Assembly (NCBI RefSeq): GCF_016097555.1
Contig: NC_054712.1
Span: 45,978,233-46,042,232 of the forward strand
Reading direction: 5' to 3'
Origin: Gigantopelta aegis
Taxonomy: Eukaryota > Mollusca > Gastropoda > Neomphalida > Peltospiridae
DNA: 64,000 nt
This document shows positions 9,547-25,200 of this stretch, piece after piece. Position 1 is the first letter of the stretch; the number at the start of each line of letters is the position of its first letter. Position numbers and translations under genes: made by a program. The notes under the pieces are model-generated. The model ran no database searches. It was not told the origin of the DNA and worked only from the letters and a program-made list of their open reading frames with translations.

Positions 9547-10085
9547 CCGAGCTATATTATGGTAGCCCCACTCCCATGGCTAGTGATATTCAATGTTTGG
9601 CTAGTAAATGACTACTGTTGCCATGCCTGATGGAAAGTAAATTGTTTTTGGTCAAATGTTGCAGATAAGTCTGTTTTGTAAATATGAATATCCTGCCCCA
9701 TCCCAAACCCCCAATGAGTGGAATGTAGCCCAGTGGTAAAGCATATGTTTGATGCGCGGTCGGTCTAGGATCGATCCTCGTCGGTGGACCCATTGGGCTA
9801 TTTCTCATTCCAGCCAGTGCTCCACAACTGGTGTAACAAAGGCTGTCGTATGTACTATCCTGTCTGTGGGATGGTGCATATAAAAGATCCCTTGCTGCCC
9901 ATGAAGTAGCGACAACAGGTTTCCTCTTTCAATATCTGTTTGATCCTTAACCATATGTCTGATGCCATATAACTGTAAAAAAATATTTGTTGAGTGCATC
10001 ATTAAATAAAACATTTTCTTCTTTTCCTTTTTAAATCACTGATCCCATGGCTAGTGGATTTTATAAAAATTCTAGAATCCCTGCA
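9547..10085 (+). mobile_element. MITE family 2 (CTAGCCATGGG), split by a SINE
   Basis: The left part (9547-9713) reads TATGGTAGCCCCACTCCCAT, GGCTAGTGATATTCAATG and GTAAATATGAATATCCTGCC. The right part (10034-10085) reads ATCACTGATCCCATGGCTAG and TTCTAGAATCCCTG. Both match the uninterrupted copy at 39100-39450. The missing middle is replaced by a SINE, so the MITE is older than the SINE. Confidence 0.65.
9714..10022 (+). mobile_element. SINE, tail type 1, nested in MITE family 2
   Basis: Nearly complete: tRNA-like head with A box TAGCCCAGTGG and B box GGATCGATCC, core GGATGGTGCATATAAAAGAT, and type 1 tail (CATATGTCTGATGCCATATA, GAGTGCATCATTAAATAAAA). Confidence 0.85.
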
Positions 10086-10736
10086 TCCATGAAGTTCATA
10101 CGCCTACAGTGGGATGTGGTTTGGCTTCAGATACAAAGAGTGTTTTATGGGGAGGAAGGTGTTTACTGCCCTTCGAAAAATGTACCAGCGTAAGCGTTAA
10201 AAAATAAAACCTATTAAATCATAGTTCAGAAATGTAACCGTGCATTACAATGTATTAAAATTATTGAAATGTAATTTTTATTGAAAACATTTATCAATGA
10301 GCATTATTTTTTATGTAAAATATATATAATTCTATTTAGTAATGATACTTTTCGTTGTGTTGTTTCGACTGCAATGTGCACTGATGCCTTACACCTTACA
10401 CATACATGCACTATTCATAGGTGGTTTTTTCTTCTTTCACAACTTGTTAAAATATTTTCTGTAAATGTTCTTTGTTGGATGGACTTGGATAATAGTGACA
10501 GTGATGATGATGGCATATTTTCATTTTATTTTATTTTATGCATATATATATATATATATACTGAGCAATGCGAAGAAAATAAACATTATCCTTTTTCCAA
10601 TGTCATGGTGTTGACTTGTTCCTTTGAAGGGAATTTTTGCATGATTCCAATGTATTTTTGTTTTAGAATTGAAAAAGAACACCCATACCACATTGTCTAG
10701 AAAGGAGCACTTCAGGCCATACCTTATTAAGAAGCT
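10086..10736. other. Gene-free AT-rich stretch
   Basis: Contains a short (TA)n run at about 10543-10561. A 139-codon ORF (10281-10700) is AT-rich, ends in this low-complexity DNA and lacks family resemblance, so it is not called. Confidence 0.4.
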
Positions 10737-12612: not shown

Positions 12613-12800
12613 TGTGTTGAGTGCGTCGTTAAATAAAACATTTCTTTCTTTCTCTGCTGTTTATCATCTATGGGATGGTGCATATAAAAGATACCTCGCT
12701 ACTAATTAAAACATGAAGTGGGTTTCCTTTCTCAGACTATGTTGAAATTACCAAGCTGATGATTAATAAATCAATGCAATCTTATGGTGTCATTAAACAA
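12613..12800 (+). mobile_element. Two SINE tail fragments
   Basis: About 12615-12646 is only the last part of a type 1 tail (GAGTGCGTCGTTAAATAAAA), flanked by the direct repeat TTTCTCTGCTGTTT. About 12660-12800 is a headless copy with a type 2 tail (GGATGGTGCATATAAAAGAT, TGATGATTAATAAATC). Confidence 0.6.
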
Positions 12801-12876
12801 AAATAAACAGAGTTAGGGTTAGCTGCACATCATAATAAAACCCAGCATGGCTGGATCTGGCAGTTACCTTTCTGTT

Positions 12877-13042
12877 ATCCTTTCTGTGGGATGGTGCATA
12901 TAAAAGATCCCTTGTTGCTAATCGAAAAGAGTAGCCCATGAAGTGGCGACAGCGGGTTTCCTCTCTCAGTATCTGTGTGGTCCGACGCCATATAACTGTA
13001 AATAAAATGTGTTGAGTGTGTTGTTAAATAAAACATTTCCTG
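12877..13042 (+). mobile_element. SINE, tail type 1, 5'-truncated
   Basis: Starts inside the core at CTGTGGGATGGTGCATATA and runs through GAGTGTGTTGTTAAATAAAA. Head and left core are absent. Confidence 0.75.
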
Positions 13043-13284: not shown

Positions 13285-16200
13285 CAGTGCAGCCTGCGAT
13301 TCATGTATGTAGACTCAGCCCGAAAAGACTTTCTGCAAATGGACTCAGCACAAGCAGATTATTTGTGTCTCGTGGTCTTACTACAAGTGGAACATCGTCC
13401 GATTTAGAAACAGAACACAACACAGAACAGTGAGAAACATTCAGTTGAATATTTCTACTGATAAATGTTTTTATTACATTCTCATTATTGCCTTTAAATA
13501 ATGCTTGCATAGAGGTGGCAGTACTTGTCTAAACTGATTCAATGGTAAAACCAACCTCAGACTGGATAAGTGTTTTCCTGTTCCGACCTATGTCACACAA
13601 CTAGTACATCAAAACCTGTGGTATATACTGTCCTGTCTGGGAAGTGCATATAAAAATCCATATTTGCGGTTTGATAAAAGTAGCCTATGTGGAGAAGTAT
13701 CAGGGAAATATTTTGGAAAAATACTATTCATGTTAATTTTAGTGCTTCGACACGATTTTATTGCTGTATCCGATTACATTAATTATTTTAACTTCTTTTT
13801 TCTCCTCAGTGCCAGTTCAAACCAGTTTGAGGAAGAAGACCACCAGATTAGAGTTAAAGTCTTGAAAGCATCACTTCCCTTTGTGTCGTCACACGGGTGG
13901 ACGAAGAAAACTCTGGCAGCGGGTGAGTTCTTTTCAAACTTTGTGTCGTCACACGGGTGGACGAAGAAAACTCTGGCAGCAGGTGAGTTCTTTTCAAACT
14001 TTGTGTCGTCACATGGGTGGACGAAGAAAACTCTGGCAGCAGGTGAGTTCTTTTCAAACTTTGTGTCGTCACACGGGTGGACGAAGAAAACTCTGGCAGC
14101 AGGTGAGTTCTTTTCAAACTTTGTGTCGTCACACGGGTGGACGAAGAAAACTCTAGCAGCGGGTGAGTTCTTTTCAAACTTTGTGTCGTCACACGGGTGG
14201 ACGAAGAAAACTCTGGCAGCGGGTGAGTTCTTTTCAAACTTTGTGTCATCACACGGGTGGACGAAGAAAACTCTAGCAGCAGGTGAGTTCTTTTCAAACT
14301 TTGTGTCGTCACACGGGTGGACGAAGAAAACTCTGACAGCGAGTGAGTTCTTTTCAAACTTTGTGTCGTCACACGGGTGGACGAAGAAAACTCTGGCAGC
14401 AGGTGAGTTCTTTCCAAACTTTGTGTCGTCACACGGGTGGACTAAGAAAACTCTGGCAGCAGGTGAGTTCTTTTCAAACTTTGTGTCGTCACACGGGTGG
14501 ACGAAGAAAACTCTGGCAGCGGGTGAGTTCTTTTCAAACTTTGTGTCGTCACACGGGTGGACGAAGAAAACTCTGGCAGCAGGTGAGTTCTTTTCAAACT
14601 TTGTGTCGTCACATGGGTGGACGAAGAAAACTCTGGCAGCGGGTGAGTTCTTTTCAAACTTTGTGTCGTCACACGGGTGGACGAAGAAAACTCTGGCAGC
14701 AGGTGAGTTCTTTTCAAACTTTGTGTCGTCACACGGGTGGACGAAGAAAACTCTGGCAGCAGGTGAGTTCTTTTCAAACCAGGATGGAAATAACCAGACT
14801 TGATGGTAAAGAGGTCAACACATCTACTAAAACTTACATTTATAGATTTTGAAATAAGACTATCTAATGATTACTGAAATGTTGAAAGTTACATGATATT
14901 ATTACACACCAGTGTGAGATATGGCTCATGTCATAACAATCACTCATTATCTAGCTAGTGTAATATTGGCGTGATGTAGATCACTTGCTTACCCAATTTG
15001 TAGAAAAACAACATGTAGTAGGTCTAGACATCTTCTTACTTCTGCATTGCGGCATGTTTGCAGTTGGTTTGTAAAAAATTAAATACTAAACTAGCTTGCC
15101 TGCCATACCATTTTTATGAAACTCGTGAACAGTGTTGGTATCCGAGTCGCTTTCGCTGGTCAGATACCAAAACTGTTCACTCATTTCATTAAAATGGTAT
15201 CGTTTATAGGTGTAGATTGTTATCATTTATAGGTGTAGATTGTTATCGTTTGTAGGTGTAGATTGTTATCGTTTGTAGGTGTAGATTGTTATCATTTGTA
15301 GGAGTAGATTGTTATCATTTGTAGGTGTAGATTGTTATCATTTGTAGGAGTGGTGTTAATAGCCTATTGTAGATTGTTATCGTTTGTAGGTGTAGATTAT
15401 TATCGTTTGTAGGTGTAGATTGTTATCGTTTGTAGGTGTAGATTGTTATCATTTGTAGGAGTGGTGTTAATAGCCTATTGTAGATTGTTATCATTTATAG
15501 GTGTAGATTGTTATCGTTTGTAGCTGTAGATTGTTATCGTTTGTAGCTGTAGATTGTTATCGTTTGTAGCTGTAGATTGTTATCATTTGTAGGAGTGGCG
15601 TTAATAGCCTATTGTAGATTGTTATCGTTTGTAGGTGTAGATTGTTATCGTTTGTAGGTGTAGATTGTTGTCGTTTGTAGGTGTAGATTGTTATCATTTG
15701 TAGGAGTAGATTGTTATCATTTGTAGGAGTGGTGTTAATAGCATATTGTAGATTGTTTTGTTTGTAGGTGTAGATTGTTATCATTTGTAGGTGTAGATTG
15801 TTATCATTTGTAGGAGTGGTGTTAATAGCCTATTGTAGATTGTTTTGTTTGTAGGTGTAGATTGTTATCGTTTTTAGGTGTAGATTGTTGTCATTTGTAG
15901 GTGTAGATTGTTGTCTTTTGTAGGTGTAGATTGTTATCGTTTGTAGGTGTAGATTGTTATCGTTTGTAGGTGTAGATTGTTATCATTTCTAGGAGTGGTG
16001 TTAATAGCCTATTGTAGATTGTTAACGTTTGTAGGTGTAGATTGTTATCGTTTGTAGGTGTAGATTGTTATCGTTTGTAGGTGTATATTGTTATAATTTG
16101 TAGGAGTGGTGTTAATAGCCTATTGTAGATTGTTTTGTTTGTAGGTGTAGATTGTTATCGTTTGTAGGTGTAGATTGTTATCGTTTGTAGGTGTAGATTG

Positions 16201-19200
16201 TTATCGTTTGTAGGTGTAGATTGTTATCATTTGTAGGAGTGGTGTTAATAGCCTATTGTAGATTGTTATCGTTTGTAGGTGTAGATTGTTATCGTTTGTA
16301 GGTATAGATTGTTATCGTTTGTAGGTGTAGATTGTTATCATTTGTAAGAGTGGTGTTAATAGCCTATTGTAGATTGTTATCGTTTGTAGGTGTAGATTGT
16401 TATTGTTTGTAGGTGTAGATTGTTATCGTTTGTAGGTGTAGATTGTTATCATTTGTAAGAGTGGTGTTAATAGCCTATTGTAGATTGTTATCGTTTGTAG
16501 GTGTAGATTGTTATTGTTTGTAGGTGTAGATTGTTATCGTTTGTAGGTGTAGATTGTTATCATTTGTAGGAGTGGTGTTAATAGCCTATTGTAGATTGTT
16601 ATCGTTTGTAGGTGTAGATTGTTATTGTTTGTAGGTGTAGATTGTTATCGTTTGTAGGTGTAGATTGTTATCGTTTGTAGGTGTAGATTGTTATCATTTG
16701 TAGGAGTGGTGTTAATAGCCTATTGTAGATTGTTTTGTTTGTAGGTGTAGATTGTTATCGTTTGTAGGTGTAGATTGTTATCATTTGTAGGAGTGGTGTT
16801 AATGCCTATTGTAGATTGTTTTGTTTGTAGGTGTAGATTGTTATCATTTGTAGGTGTAGATTGTTATCATTTGTAGGAGTGGTGTTAATAGCCTATTGTA
16901 GATTGTTTTGTTTGTATCTGTTGGGCTGGATGTAGCCCAGTGGTAACACGCTATGTTGATGTGCGGTTGGTCTGGGATCGATTTCCCTCGGTGACCTATT
17001 GGTCTTATTTCTCATTCCAGCCAGTGCACCACAACTGGTATATCAATGGCCATGGTATGTGCTGTCCTGTCTTGGGATGGTGCATATAAAAGATCCCATG
17101 CTACTAGTGAAAAAATACAGCAGGTTTCTTCTCTAAGACTATATGTCAAAATTACCAATTGTTTGACATCCATTAGCCAATGATTGATTTATCAATATGC
17201 TCTAGTGATGTTGTTAAACAAAACAAACTTAACTTTTTTTTTTTTTATCTTTCATTATTTAGAGATGAATTCAGCTGAATATTCAGGGCCTTAGCTAGGA
17301 TATTTTGTGTGTGGGCAGATGAATTCTTGAAGAACAAACAAGCATGGAAGACACAATTCACTAGGAGGTCCGGGGGCATGTCCTTCCAGGACATGTTAGA
17401 ATCTAGAGGCTCTGAAATACCATCTTGTAGCCATTTCAGGGAGGTTACATGCTTAAAATGTCCATATCAATAACCAGTATATATTTTTTAACCGCCACTA
17501 GCTACGGCCCTGATGTTTTACTGACTAAAATACTGTTTGTAGGTGCTGAAGTAGAAGGGTATACCTCCGTCGCTCACGGCATGTTTCCACGTGGAGGAGT
17601 CGAACTGATAGAGTATTTCTACACCTCGGCCAATGAGGAGCTCGCTAACATACTGAAGGCAGAAGTGGAGGAACTCAAGACAAAGGGTGAAAAGTAAATT
17701 CACAGAATATTTGGTTTTTAAAATTTTGATTAGCGACATTTAAAAATTGATAAGCAACTACTATTTAATGTTTTAGACTTGTGTAGTGATCTCTGAAACT
17801 TACATAGAAAATTGTGATGTGATACTGAAAAAAATATTCGTTGAAATTTTCTTTTTGTAACTGGTGGAACAGCCAAGATACCGGTACGTCATTTCCACGT
17901 GCTGATCTGCCTTTAGTTTCTTTGTTCAAAATATTGATTACCAGTATTACTTCAGGTGCAATTGCCTAAATTGGCTCTTCCAGCAGTTTTGCATTCATCC
18001 CTGTATTAAAATTGAGATTTAATCCATATAATTTGATGGTAATTTGCATTGACATTGATTTTTTTTTTTGACATAGGAATTTATAAAAAAAAGTTTAAAT
18101 GGGAGTTGGTATAGGCTTAAAACTTACTATGTTTTTATACATATTTCAGCATTTTTTGTATAAAGTTACATGCCAGGGGACTCATTCACAAAGGTCTCTT
18201 AGGCTCTGCTAGACAACAAAGCATCCTCTTTGCAAGTATTTTAGCATTGCACTGCGAGATCGCAAAGTTGCGAGAGTTTAGTGAATTAGGCCCCAGTTCA
18301 TTAGTACCTATTTGACACAAACAGACTGTAAATAATAGCTGTGATTTAAAATATGCAGATGTATTATTAAAGGAAAAAAACAAATTGCTTTGATTAGTTT
18401 TAAAATATCACACCGTATAAGATGAAAATTCCATTAGTCCTTAATCTGTATCTGTATATGTAATTCATAATACATATTCTTGCCCACTGGACAAAGTTAT
18501 CCAGCTTTTGCACGGTGCTAGAAAAATCTGTCTGACACGAGGCTAGATAAATCTGTCCGACTCGAGGGCTAGACGATTTCTACATACGCGTGATGTCGTA
18601 ACTTGTGCTTTACAACGATTGACATCATAACTCATGCTTTTCAGAATTCTGTTTGCCATTTCTCGTTGTATCATTGTTTTAAAAATATTTAAACAAATTA
18701 ATATTTTCAACTTTATATTTATTGGTAAGTTGTTACATTTTTATGTCGTTGCATGAGGTGGGCTATATTTCCCCACATATGATTAAATGAGTTTGTAGGT
18801 AAAATATTTACAAATCATTTTACAACAAACAAACTGTCTTTTACAAAATTAATGTTTTGTTACTGAAATTAAATGGGCAAGAAAAAGAATCAATCACCTC
18901 AGAACAAACTGTTTTTATACCAGCCTCGGTAAACCTCGGCCCTCACAAAAAACATTTTGTCCCTCGGGTTGCAATTGTCTTGTCTATACTTCACAATGAT
19001 GATAGATTCTATTAATCTATAACAGTCACTTTCTGAACAAATGGGTTGAGTAGATTCCATTTATTAATATAACTTGCCCATGATATCCATGTCATAAACC
19101 CATGTGATAATTTAATGTATTAACCCGGTCTCTAGGTAATATGTTGCTGTGGATCGGTGATTTGTTTACAAGCCAACAAGACCTGTGTACCTGAGAGTAA

Positions 19201-22200
19201 TGTTTTGAAAGATTTACTTAAAATGTGTGACATCAAACTAATTTGTCACAATCGTGATGATGTCATATTACCGATGGCGGCGACTTTAGTACTGTCATTC
19301 ACTAAAGATTGAATTAAAATGTTATTTTAGAAGTGTTATAGGATAAATAAAATTCACTACTCATGTTTTTTAATATGGAAAATACCAACCTCGTCTAATT
19401 AATCGGTATTTGTCTCAGCAGAGCCTCGACAAATACCGATTAACATAGACTTGGTTGATATTTTCCATCTATTTATGCATCTCTGTATGCATGTAATTAT
19501 CCAATCATGTGCTCTATGCATTATTAATTATGTATATATTTATACATATGGATTATGTATCTGACTATGTTTATTTCGTGTGTTTACCATGATAAAAGAT
19601 AATTTTATTTCACATATTGTATTGATGTTTTTTCAGACCCAAAACGAGACCATTTATCCGAAGTGCTGTTGAAAAGAGACTACGAATGATCACACCATAC
19701 ATAGACCAATGGCCCCAGGTTTGTCTGTCTGGTGTTTCGTCTCTCAGTCTCTGACAATAGCTAACATTTGATTGGTTAATGTCAAGACTAGAGCATATTG
19801 ATTTATTATTCATCGGCTATTGAATGTCAAATATTTGGTAACTTTTTACCCCCACTTTTGTCTCGGATCTTTTATGTACACTTTCAAGCAGCCATTGAAA
19901 TACCAGTGGTGGTGCATTGGTTGGGATGGGAAAAAATCCAATCACAGAATGGGTCTACCAAGGGTGTTCAATCTTACAATGCAAACACCTAAGGTGAGCG
20001 GTCTACCCACTGAGCTAGACCCTGCTTCTCTCGTTGGGTAATAGTGATTAGTTAAAGAATGCATTACGCCTTCATTAAACAAGGCCCATTGGGCTATTCC
20101 TCCCTCCAGCCAGTGCACCATGACTGGTATATCAAAGGACATGGTGTGTGTTATCCTGTCTGTGGGATGGTGCATATAAAAGATCCCTTGCTGCTAATCG
20201 AAAGCTCATGAAGTGGCAACAGCAGGTTTCCTCTCTCAATATCTGTGTGGTCCTTAACCATATGTCCGATGCCATATAACCGTAAATAAAATGTGTTGAG
20301 TGCGTTGTTAAATAAAACCCTTCCTTCCTTCCTTCCCATAATCACAAGGCACGGAACTGAAAAAGTGTTTGAAATTTGAAATCCTATAGCCTGCTGTCAT
20401 AAAGTGTGCTTTTTCTAATTCTGTTTACAACCTTCAAAACATTACCCAGACACCTGGAGGATGTTTAATTGTATTGTCAGATATAATATAAAGTCTGAAA
20501 TCTTGTCACACAGGTTGTTGTGTAACGAGTGCGTGCAGGATGTTTAATTGTATTGTCAGATGTAATATAAAGTCTGAAATCTTGTCACACAGGTTGTTGT
20601 GTAACGAGTGCGTGCAGGATGTTTAATTGTATGGTCAGATGTAATATAAAGTCTGAAATCTTGTCATACAAGTTGTTGTGTAACGAGTGCGTGCAGGATG
20701 TTTAATTGTATGGTCAGATGTAATATAAAGTCTGAAATCTTGTCATACAAGTTGTTGTGTAACGAGTGCGTGCAGGATGTTTAATTGTATTGTCAGATGT
20801 AATATCAAGTCTGAAATCTTGTCATACAGGTTGTTGTGTAACGAGTGCGTGCTTTCCTTTCTCTCCATGCGTGAGGGGTGGGATGTAGCCCAGTGGTAAA
20901 GCGTTCTCTTGATGTGCGATCGGTCTGGGATCGATCCCCGTTGGGGGGCCCATTGAACTATTTCTCGCTTCAGCCAGTGCTCCACAACTGGTGTAACAAA
21001 GGCCATGGTATGTGTTATTCTGTCTATGGGATGGTGCATATAAAAGATCCCTTGCTTCTAACCGATAAGAGTAGCACATAAAGTGGCGACAGCGGGTTTC
21101 CTCTCTCAATATCTGTGTGGTCCTTAACCATATGTCTGACACCATATAACAGTAAATAAAATGTGTTGAGTGCATCGTTAAATAAAACATTTCCTTCCTT
21201 TCTCTCCAGGCGATGGCTATCCAGGCTCTGCCCCTGAATGCCGTGCAGTCGTGGAAAAATCTTGGTCAACTGATGGACGACATCTGGTTCTACGCGGGAG
21301 ATGATTCTGTAGATGTGAGTCAAAATTGTGACCAGGTCTCAACCCCGACAGTCAAGAATCTCTGGGGACAATAAAAAAAAAAAAAAAAAATTAAAAAAAT
21401 TGAACCAGGTCTTGACCGTAAGTTTTTCGTTGGTAGCCCACCAGTCTACCAGGTTATAAAAATTGGCAGCCTTCAGTAAAAATTGGTAGCTCCATAATTT
21501 TAATAAATTAAAAAAAAAAGAGTAAAAATCTAAATCATTTATTTTGATTTAAAGATGTTGTTTCAGGTGGGGGTTTTAAAAGTGTTTTAGTGTCTTGTTG
21601 ATTGCGGAGTAACTGGATGTACTATACAAATCTAGTAGCCCGACGGACTACTGGGTTTAGACAACTGGTAGCCCGAGTAACAAATTGGTAGCCAAAACAC
21701 CCCAGCTAGTGCTAAGGCCAAGCCCTGAATTCTCTTAAAAAGATCAGTCTAGGGACGTGTGATATTACTGGTATTGTTTAACAACACTACAAGGGCACCT
21801 TGGTTAATTAATCATTGATTATTGGATGTCGAACATTTAAAAAATTGATAATCAGACATGTAGTCTTCAATGATGACCTACTACATTAGCAAAAAAGGGA
21901 TTTTTTTATTTTATATATACAATTTTTCGAGACAGGACAGCGCATACCAGGGCCTTTAGTAATAACATCTTTGTAACAATAGACAGTGCTTGTGTATCAG
22001 AACATACATATACCCGTATTGGTTGTATGGGTAGTAGTGTTGGGGAGTGCATTTTGCTTGAAGAATATTTCGTCTCAATCATAGTAACGACTACACTGTT
22101 TTACATCTGTTTCAGTTCAAGTGGTACACTAAAAGAGTATCTCTGGCGGGTGTTTACAAGAGTACGGAGATCTACATGATACAAGACCGATCGGAGGACA

Positions 22201-25200
22201 ACGCGAACACCTGGACGTTTCTAGACAGGCGACTCGATGACCTCACACAACTGGCATCAACTCTCAGAAACGTATGCATGTTACTTGATCATCTACATGA
22301 TAAACACATGTGTCAAATCAACTCTCAGAAACGTATGATAAACATGTGTCAAATCAACTCTCAGAAATGTATGCATGTTACTTGATCATCTACATGATAA
22401 ACACACGTCAAATCAACTCTCAGAAACGTATGCATATTACTTGATCATCTACATGATAAACACACGTGTCAAATCAACTCTCAGAAACGTATGCATGTTA
22501 CTTGATCATCTACATGATAAACACACGTCAAATCAACTCAGAAATGTATACATGTTACAATGATCATCTACATGATAAACACACGTCAAATCAACTCTCA
22601 GAAATGTATGCATATTACTTGATCATCTACATGATAAACATGTGTCAATCAACTCTCAGAAACGTATGCATGTTACTTGATCATCTGAATGATAAACACA
22701 TGTGTCAAATCAACTCTCAGAAACGTATGCATGTTACTTGATCATCTGCATGATAAACACACGGGTCATATCAACTCTCAGAAATGTATGCATGTTACTT
22801 GATCATCTCAATGATAAACGTGTGTCATATCAACTCTCAGAAATGTATGCATGTTACTTGATCATCTACATGATAAACATGTGTCATATCAACTCTCAGA
22901 AATGTATGCATGTTACTTGATCATCTACATGATAAACACACGTCAAATCAACTCTCAGAAATGTATGCATGTTACTTGATCATCTCAATGATAAACATGT
23001 GTCAAATCAACCACCTTGAATTACTAACCTTTTTTTTATGCACCCGTGTATGTATGATGGGTCATTTTATGGTATGGTGTTGTCTGTCCGTCCGTCCGTC
23101 CGTCCGTCCATTCATTTTTCTTGTCCAGACTATATCTTCCATACAGATGCATACAGGACCATCAGACAATCACGTGTAGGAACAACTTGGGATGGTATTA
23201 TTACTAGGTCACTGTGAGTTACTTTTCATGGTCTACTGCACATAACAGTAAATTCTTGTCTGGACCATATCTTGCTTACAGATCCATACAGGACCATCGA
23301 ACCTCACATGTAGGAACAACTTGGGATGGCGGTGTGTTGCGTACTATTACTAGATCACTGTGACCTACTTTTCATGGTCTAATGCACATAACAGTAAATC
23401 CTTGTCCGGATCGTATCTTGCATTCAGGACCATCAAACCTCACATGTAGGAACAACTTGGGATAGTGGTGTGTCGCGTACTATTACTAGGTCACTGTGAC
23501 CTACTTTTCGTGGTCTAATGCACATAACAGTAAATCCTTGTCCGGATCATATCTTGCATACAGGACTATCAAACCTCACATGTAGGAACAACTTGGGATA
23601 GTGGTGTGTAACATACAATTACTAGGTCTCTGTGATACAAATAAATAATTTGTCTATATTCTGAACATCATATGGTTTTCCATCAAACTCCTGATGGGCG
23701 TATCATGTACCTCACCAGTACTCTTGTTAACTATATTTTTCAGGTCACTCAGTGTGGAGATGTTGTTGGAGAAGGCCTCAACGGGATATTCATAATGGTA
23801 CGAGTTTTAAAGAGCCACTGTCAGTCCAGTTATGTAATGAAATATGTTGGGAATACTAGTTTAATATCCGATACTGAAACATACATAAGATATTAATCAG
23901 ACTGGGGCTTTTTTTTGTGTTAAATTGGATGCACCTTAGTCTCAGACTTAGTGAGTTATTCAGTTTGTGCAGCTTGTATGAAATGTACAACTTGCCGTCA
24001 TTAAAATGACAGAATTAAAATAATAAAATGAAACACATGTTTGCTGGGTCTTGAAAAGTAGGCTTGACTATTGTGGACTTTTCACCAAAAAACAAGAACT
24101 GACATAGATTCCAGGTGACATTAAAATCTGGAATAGAGGTTTTTCATCTCTGAACTTTTAACGTTTTATGCTAATTTGTAATGTTAAAAATGTGTTTTGG
24201 CCACTGGATGTCAAACATTTGATAATTATGATAAGTCTCCAGAGAAAACCTGCTATATTTTTACATTAGCAGCAAGAAATCTTTTATATGCACCCTCCCA
24301 CAGACAGGACAGCACATACCATGTCTTTGATATATACTGGAGTACTGGTTGGGATGGGGAAAAACTTAACAGGTCCGCTGAGGAGATTCGATCCTACAAC
24401 TCAAGCTCATCAGATGAGCGCTCTACCAACTGATTTTAACGCCATCACTGTAACCAGTTTAAGATTTGAGCAGTAGATTTACCGTAATTTTAACGCCGTC
24501 ACTGTAACCAGTTTAAGATTTGAGCAGTAATTTACTGTAATTTTAACCCCGTCACTGTAACCAGTTTAAGATTTGAGCAGTAGATTTACCGTAATTTTAA
24601 CGCCGTCACTGTAACCAGTTTAAGATTTGAGCAGTAGATTTACTGTAATTTTAACCCCGTCACTGTAACCAGTTTAAGATTTGAGCAGTAGATTTACCAT
24701 AATTTTAACCCTGTCACTGTAACCAGTTTAAGATTTGAGCAGTGGATTTACCTTAATCTTATTGATAACAGTTGTTGTTTGTATTAACAGCAAAACAGAT
24801 TCAGTGAGTAAACGGAGACATTGCTACTTTAATAATATAAACCGGTATCGACTATAGTCCATTCCCAGCCTCCATGAACATTGTTTTTTGTAAATAATTT
24901 CGGTTTGATTTGACATAATGGAAAGTGAAAGTATTTTGGAAATAAAAAATAAAAAAAACCCCAAAACAACAACCCCCTCCTGCCAAAAAACCCCCAACCC
25001 TCCTCTGTGCAATTCAAAAAAACTTGTAATAAATTAAATACCATAGTGCAGGCCTGGAAATAATTATTTGGACCATGCCTGTCAAGCTGTCCTATATCAG
25101 TCAGTTTGTGCCTGTCACAAATTAAAATGTACCTGTCACCAAATTGCATGCCAGTGTGTAAATATCGAAAGCAATTATTACAAATTTTAGAATGTTATTT

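Follow-up and report, generated by a model that had tools for sequence, protein, structure and literature searches.

Which splice donor does a gene use when the end of one of its coding exons, donor included, has been copied many times in a row, and can it tolerate the others? This question is raised by the COQ9 gene of Gigantopelta aegis in the 64,000 nucleotides of DNA analysed here (the window). The first-pass annotation had claimed 15 nearly homogeneous copies of a 60-bp unit at 13880-14779, a unit that crosses the exon-intron border and thus repeats the donor 15 times, and a coding frame open in every copy.

A COQ9 exon end in 15 tandem copies

The elements of this array (array 1) are the following.
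13880..14779, forward strand: tandem array 1, 15 x 60 bp (TRF and unit table)
13923..13928, forward strand: donor 1, CGG/GTGAGT, phase 1 junction to exon B
13983..14768, forward strand: 14 further GTGAGT donors, at 13983+60k, 9 of the 14 being CAG/GTGAGT

All of these claims were borne out. TRF reported the array at 13879-14779 with a period of 60, 15.0 copies, 96% matches, 0% indels and a score of 1697. Once the array is cut into 15 units from 13880, pairwise identity averages 97.2%; 8 of the 60 positions are variable, in several combinations among the copies. The unit consists of 43 nt of exon tail, GTGAGT and 11 nt of intron, and GTGAGT is kept in 15 of 15 units. The donor GTs lie at 13923+60k, one base further right than the 13922+60k first given. 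The donor is preceded by CAG in 9 of the 15 copies, by CGG in 5 (including copy 1) and by CGA in copy 8. When donor strength was measured as U1 duplex energy, donor 1 (-11.7 kcal/mol) was slightly weaker than the CAG copies (-12.4 kcal/mol); by U1 pairing, 9 of the 14 downstream donors are therefore stronger than donor 1. The reading frame FVSSHGWTKKTLAAGEFFSN is free of stops through all 15 copies, the first in-frame stop past donor 1 being met 878 nt into the intron, 3′ of the array, and the translated read-through gives 15 matches to the COQ9_N domain. A DNA search across all 5216 contigs of the genome (1.149 Gb) placed array 1 at a single locus. The array is real and far beyond chance; arrays are nonetheless common in this genome. 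The same COQ9 intron also carries, 3′ of array 1, a 1.7-kb array of 23-bp units at 15198-16877 (TRF).

Homology to human COQ9 up to the first donor

The exons of the gene were placed as follows.
13810..13922, forward strand: COQ9 exon A, human residues about 89-124 (PF21392, 5.7e-8; tblastn; acceptor ctcctcag ending 13809)
17543..17688, 3′ end tentative, forward strand: COQ9 exon B, human from residue 124 (tblastn; acceptor tttgtag ending 17542)
19637..19718, forward strand: COQ9 exon C, human 177-202 (tblastn)
21210..21314, forward strand: COQ9 exon D, human 202-237 (donor GAT/GTGAGT; tblastn, Pfam)
22116..22271, forward strand: COQ9 exon E, human 238-289 (PF08511, 1e-20; PDB 4rhp, 1.8e-10)
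23744..23809, end tentative, forward strand: probable COQ9 exon F, C-terminal, VTQCGDVVGEGLNG... (gapless match, acceptor tttttcag, phase)

The identification as COQ9 was confirmed by Pfam and by tblastn with the human protein. Pfam assigned exon A to COQ9_N (PF21392, 5.7e-8) and two later exons to COQ9 (PF08511, 1e-20 and 2.5e-6), both domains being present in collinear exons of the window gene; exon B, searched alone as 17545-17697, gave no COQ9 match in Pfam. The human query for tblastn, which differs by 1 residue from PDB 6awl, found five collinear blocks (13829-13924, 17542-17664, 19641-19718, 21207-21314 and 22116-22274). The exon F block did not have the top score in the gapless scan and was chosen for order, phase and acceptor. 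No COQ9 exons were found 5′ of 13810.

Array 1 overlaps exon A over 43-44 nt, its donor included, and the last 43 nt of the exon fall within unit 1. At donor 1, where exon A ends, the phase is 1, and exon B continues in it from 17543. Since homology to the human protein extends as far as donor 1 and is taken up again in phase at 17543, donor 1 gives a normal COQ9. With regard to intron gain by tandem duplication, the gene model is explained with the old donor and exon B alone; a pyrimidine-rich acceptor was, by eye, absent from the array 1 unit.

COQ9 retrocopies were considered as a record of past splicing and set aside, the 6 matches to PF08511 being confined to the window gene and contig C1683. 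On this small contig, two more pairs of COQ9 matches (9833-10092 and 12641-12899) lie in tandem and are split differently; they perhaps come from another organism within the assembly. In the window gene, a 79-bp x 5 array (20458-20852) adjoins a tRNA-like, SINE-like element (20853-21209), recognised by eye, that seems to have inserted into the acceptor pyrimidine tract of exon D. The sequence CCTTTCTCTCCA is found on both sides of this element, a possible target-site duplication.

A second array at exon E

The end of another COQ9 exon has been amplified as well.
22256..23011, forward strand: tandem array 2, about 12 copies, exon E end plus donor GTAT (TRF, donor table, unit alignment)

The array opens with the last 16 nt of exon E, which ends in phase 0 at 22271. 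The spacing is mostly 57-61 bp, with one step of 36. The 13 weak donors AA[CT]/GTAT (22272-22963) lie in all three frames relative to the first of them, with stops present, and read-through past this first donor runs into a stop after 111 nt of intron. Because the donors are of mixed frame and stops are present, a normal COQ9 needs donor 1 of array 2. Two of 11 COQ9 borders are thus inside arrays, for which the chance is 0.15-0.19 at a sampled minisatellite cover of 6.4-7.4%, in a gene that was itself picked for having an array.

The open frame of array 1

The kept frame of array 1 had been taken as meaningful. At this base composition, a period divisible by 3 together with a stop-free intron tail of 17 nt has a chance of about 0.22. 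Five of the 8 variable sites are synonymous, and 4 of these 5 are at CpG. The synonymous excess has a P of 0.05-0.14, depending on the CpG rate assumed, and is mostly CpG, which is why we make no claim of selection on the copies; array 1 gives no convincing indication of selection at the protein level. Conservation of the donor hexamer among the copies was likewise discarded as evidence: given 8 variable sites in a 60-nt unit, about 0.8 changes are all that the hexamer would be expected to show, so that intact GTGAGT copies say little. With the chance of about 0.22, the CpG bias of the synonymous sites and the stop or frameshift that donor 2 would bring in 8 of the 12 arrays described below, a meaning of the kept frame is not supported.

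Tandem arrays and donor motifs across the genome

To estimate the abundance of arrays, 10-kb pieces were sampled at 20 evenly spaced points along the same chromosome, amounting to 192 kb without N. For units of 20-200 bp, cover in this sample is 7.3% when at least 3 copies are required and 6.5% when at least 5 are, against 7.8% and 7.4% in the window. For the narrower class of 30-90 bp, again in at least 5 copies, it is 6.4% in the sample and 3.6% in the window. The distribution is uneven, about half of the sampled pieces being without any array of at least 4 copies.

The whole genome was then searched for three donor motifs in series, 30-60 bp apart, with the reversed motif as control. CAGGTRAGT gave 1819 triple matches versus 366 reversed (singles 19902 versus 12702), CAGGTGAGTT gave 234 versus 24 (singles 2250 versus 914) and CAGGTAAGT gave 467 versus 213, 2.2 fold in matches. 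The share of motifs in triple arrays was 9.1% versus 2.9% reversed for CAGGTRAGT and 10.4% versus 2.6% for CAGGTGAGTT. Matches overlap within arrays, so places were counted by eye. Among the matches listed, there were 4 arrays of CAGGTRAGT in the first 9.9 Mb of contig C1, 6 of CAGGTAAGT over about 78 Mb and 12 of CAGGTGAGTT over about 339 Mb; the control for these counts, a shorter two-fold degenerate motif, had about 15 arrays over about 492 Mb, again among the matches listed. On contig C1, CAGGTGAGTT occupies 63 independent places among the matches listed, 5 of them with at least 3 copies.

Donor-covering arrays in other genes

The 5′ side was examined for 24 donor-motif arrays: 11 (L027-L037), 11 with the motif CAGGTGAGTT (L041-L051) and 2 (L061, L062). 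A recognisable coding exon stands at the array start in 10 of the 24 (1/11, 8/11 and 1/2), or in 10 of 21 when L029, L037 and L062, in which the 5′ start is not or hardly within the stretch, are left out. Outside COQ9 these exons are the following.
GKAP1, C2:15861743-15862500 (L034, L038): 89-bp array, collinear exons around
SRCR exon, L042: PF00530, 2e-18
CLPX, L043: PDB 9dvy, 5.3e-7
importin-9, L044: PDB 10sm, 6.3e-11
transmembrane-type exon, L046: recognised by type
UTP20, L047: PF20416, 4.5e-18
KCNQ-like channel, L049: PDB 10nl, 3.5e-15
MRP1-like ABC transporter, L050: PDB 8vt4, 0.00095
tyrosine kinase, L051: PF07714, 7.3e-9
LIM exon, L061: PF00412, 4.4e-7

Eight of the ten were named by Pfam or PDB and one is of transmembrane type; GKAP1 was named by collinear exons against a protein sequence. 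The units of the GKAP1 array mostly carry CAGGTAAGT twice, 16 in total, and a stop follows 36 nt into the intron. In the 8 exons named by Pfam or PDB, the match reaches the last residue before donor 1 or ends at most 4 residues short of it. For 14 of the 24 arrays no coding exon was recognised on the 5′ side (L032, L036 and L045 by lack of a Pfam match, the others as judged by eye), and for this reason no special enrichment at real exons is claimed. On contig C1, a coding exon was seen in 1 of 5 CAGGTGAGTT arrays, one of the five being hardly visible at its 5′ start.

With COQ9, the total amounts to 12 donor-covering arrays in 11 genes, which overlap their exons by 2 to 49 nt. Uniqueness of the COQ9 array is rejected in view of array 2 in the same gene and of the 10 of 24 donor-motif arrays that start in a coding exon elsewhere. 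The periods of the first ten arrays are 60, 59 (97), 89, 60, 41, 24, 33, 46, 36 (72) and 56, divisible by 3 in 5 of the 10 (P 0.21); the LIM array has a period of 76-78 and the KCNQ-like array one of 42-44. Ten of the 12 arrays run into an in-frame stop, 1-47 nt into the intron in 7 and after 111, 117 and 135 nt in 3. COQ9 array 1 is without a stop throughout, as is the array of the transmembrane exon over the 150 nt examined. Splicing at donor 2 would result in a stop or frameshift in 8 of the 12 (COQ9 exon E, GKAP1, SRCR, CLPX, UTP20, MRP1-like, kinase and LIM), and would stay in frame without a stop in COQ9 exon A, importin-9, the transmembrane exon and the KCNQ-like channel. With 4 of 12, a frame kept at donor 2 is not a general trait of donor-covering arrays.

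Comparison with acceptors

As a counterpart we used the acceptor motif TTTTTACAGG, whose surplus over the reversed control resembles that of the donor motifs. It gave 31 triples versus 20 reversed (singles 12605 versus 8097), a triple-array share of 0.25% versus 0.25%. None of 9 acceptor-motif arrays met an exon at the last acceptor, as judged by eye from open frames. In L052 and L060 the array filled the 301-bp stretch, which leaves 0 of 7 arrays seen to end; in L053 and L059 an exon seems to lie shortly 3′ of the array. Compared with the donor arrays, 0 of 7 gives a Fisher P of 0.03 against 10/21 and of 0.013 against 8/12, and of 0.007-0.07 on tallies with one exon fewer. All 31 triples are on the forward strand and 0 on the reverse, whereas single copies of the motif divide about evenly between the strands (6372 and 6233). 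The flanks read were shorter for acceptors (301 versus about 400-1700 bases for donors). An asymmetry between donors and acceptors looks new, but is only suggestive, because the motif is T-rich, its matches are on one strand, the flanks are shorter and the triple-array shares are weighted by array size.

Discussion

The array in COQ9 had been regarded as something undescribed. However, the minisatellite of human IFI6 (6-16, G1P3) is already described as a source of several donors, two downstream repeat units acting as donors to give three mRNA species (PMC4526556); the title of Turri et al. (1995) likewise states that it supplies multiple splice donors. IFI6 so described resembles array 1, which includes the donor of a coding exon and has a donor-like sequence in every unit (GTGAGT in 15 of 15). 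The two cases differ in that multiple-donor use is reported for IFI6 and is at most conceivable for array 1, and in that such arrays recur here, mostly out of frame, across many genes of a single genome. They also differ in the size of the unit, which is 12 bp in the IFI6 minisatellite and 60 bp in array 1. In the potato RdRp gene, a tandem duplication across the intron 1-exon 2 border is reported to have given a new intron (PMC4974935). Like the COQ9 arrays, this duplication spans a border between intron and exon and carries splice signals with it, but COQ9 has many donor copies and no new intron was recognised in it. Intronic minisatellites, as found here, are also described in intron 3 of an abalone TSSK1-like gene (27-bp unit, copy number varying between individuals; PMC6905558) and in intron 1 of an earthworm metallothionein gene (PMC12783039), neither being described there as including an exon end or donor. 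Our literature search, mainly of titles and abstract openings, met no report of recurrent donor-covering arrays across one genome. The COQ9 array is thus of a known but rarely reported kind, and its recurrence within one genome, mostly regardless of frame, looks new.

It seems likely that minisatellites catch exon ends in this very repeat-rich DNA and that the spliceosome mostly takes the first donor. Array 1 would then be an ordinary minisatellite that by chance took in an exon end: a 60-bp stretch of 43 nt exon tail and 17 nt intron would have been tandemly duplicated and then grown in copy number, with the 14 extra donor copies now being intronic decoys. The exon would be recognised from its acceptor and paired mainly with the first donor (113-nt exon), giving normal COQ9, while donors 2-4 (exons of 173-293 nt) might see some low-level use, lengthening the protein by 20, 40 or 60 residues. 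Another COQ9 donor, and donors of at least 10 other genes, have been caught in the same way. Because donor 2 would spoil the protein in two thirds of the arrays and homology extends up to about donor 1, we infer use of the first donor as the simplest account. Several points count against it. Donor motifs are enriched in arrays relative to the reversed motifs, a bias that chance alone would leave unexplained. Donor 1 of array 1 pairs slightly worse with U1 than the CAG copies, and 14 of the 24 donor-motif arrays are without a recognisable coding exon. Moreover, in classical duplicated-donor experiments the intron-proximal copy can be favoured.

The decoys of exon A are in frame, and therefore a minor ladder of longer products is possible; copies 2-4, with their stronger U1 pairing, would be the likeliest leaks. 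Where donor 2 is in frame, as in 4 of 12 arrays, leakage could go unpunished. A true ladder of COQ9 isoforms in 20-residue steps, with a range set by array length, would go further than this, and we consider it unlikely. It would accord with the frame open through 15 of 15 copies, with the 9 of 14 stronger downstream donors, with the restoration of FVSSHGWTKKTLAAG before exon B by each insert and the 15 read-through matches to COQ9_N, with the frame kept at donor 2 in three other arrays, and with IFI6, a small-scale case of the kind, which is described as employing two downstream units. However, the open frame has a chance of about 0.22 and 8 of 12 arrays lack it at donor 2, the synonymous excess (5/8, P 0.05-0.14) is mostly CpG, and the insert would sit within the conserved N-terminal domain. 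The peptide GEFFSNFVSSHGWTK would exist only if a downstream donor is used. That array 1 is an assembly artefact, its true length being one or few units, is hardly credible: long arrays are often mis-sized in assemblies, but the 8 variable sites in several combinations among 15 copies, the single locus and the many similar arrays across the assembly speak against it.

The arrays might be kept since repeated U1 sites help the gene, for example by blocking premature intronic cleavage or by strengthening exon recognition. The donor motifs are about 3-4 fold enriched in arrays versus reversed (CAGGTAAGT alone 2.2 fold), the one acceptor motif shows no enrichment (0.25% versus 0.25%), and GTGAGT is intact in 15 of 15 copies. 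We nevertheless regard such a benefit as quite improbable, given the 14 of 24 arrays without a recognisable coding exon, the mere 0.8 or so hexamer changes expected, which make the intact donors weak evidence, and the amplification of the weak exon E donor of COQ9 too. A wider and tentative proposal, somewhat doubtful in our view, is that minisatellites in this genome preferentially arise or find refuge at 5′ splice sites: by rough inference a few per cent of strong donors would be amplified and acceptors not, a rule of using the first donor would provide tolerance, and the arrays would possibly serve as U1 platforms. If this were true, each of the many arrays would be a natural experiment in donor choice.

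How the spliceosome selects one of several equally good donors has so far been studied mostly in artificial constructs. Real genes with three to dozens of near-identical serial donors offer a ready-made test of donor choice. The arrays that break the frame (CLPX, UTP20, GKAP1 and COQ9 exon E) would be expected to persist only where splicing keeps to the first donor, and in minisatellite-rich genomes gene predictors may misplace exon ends.
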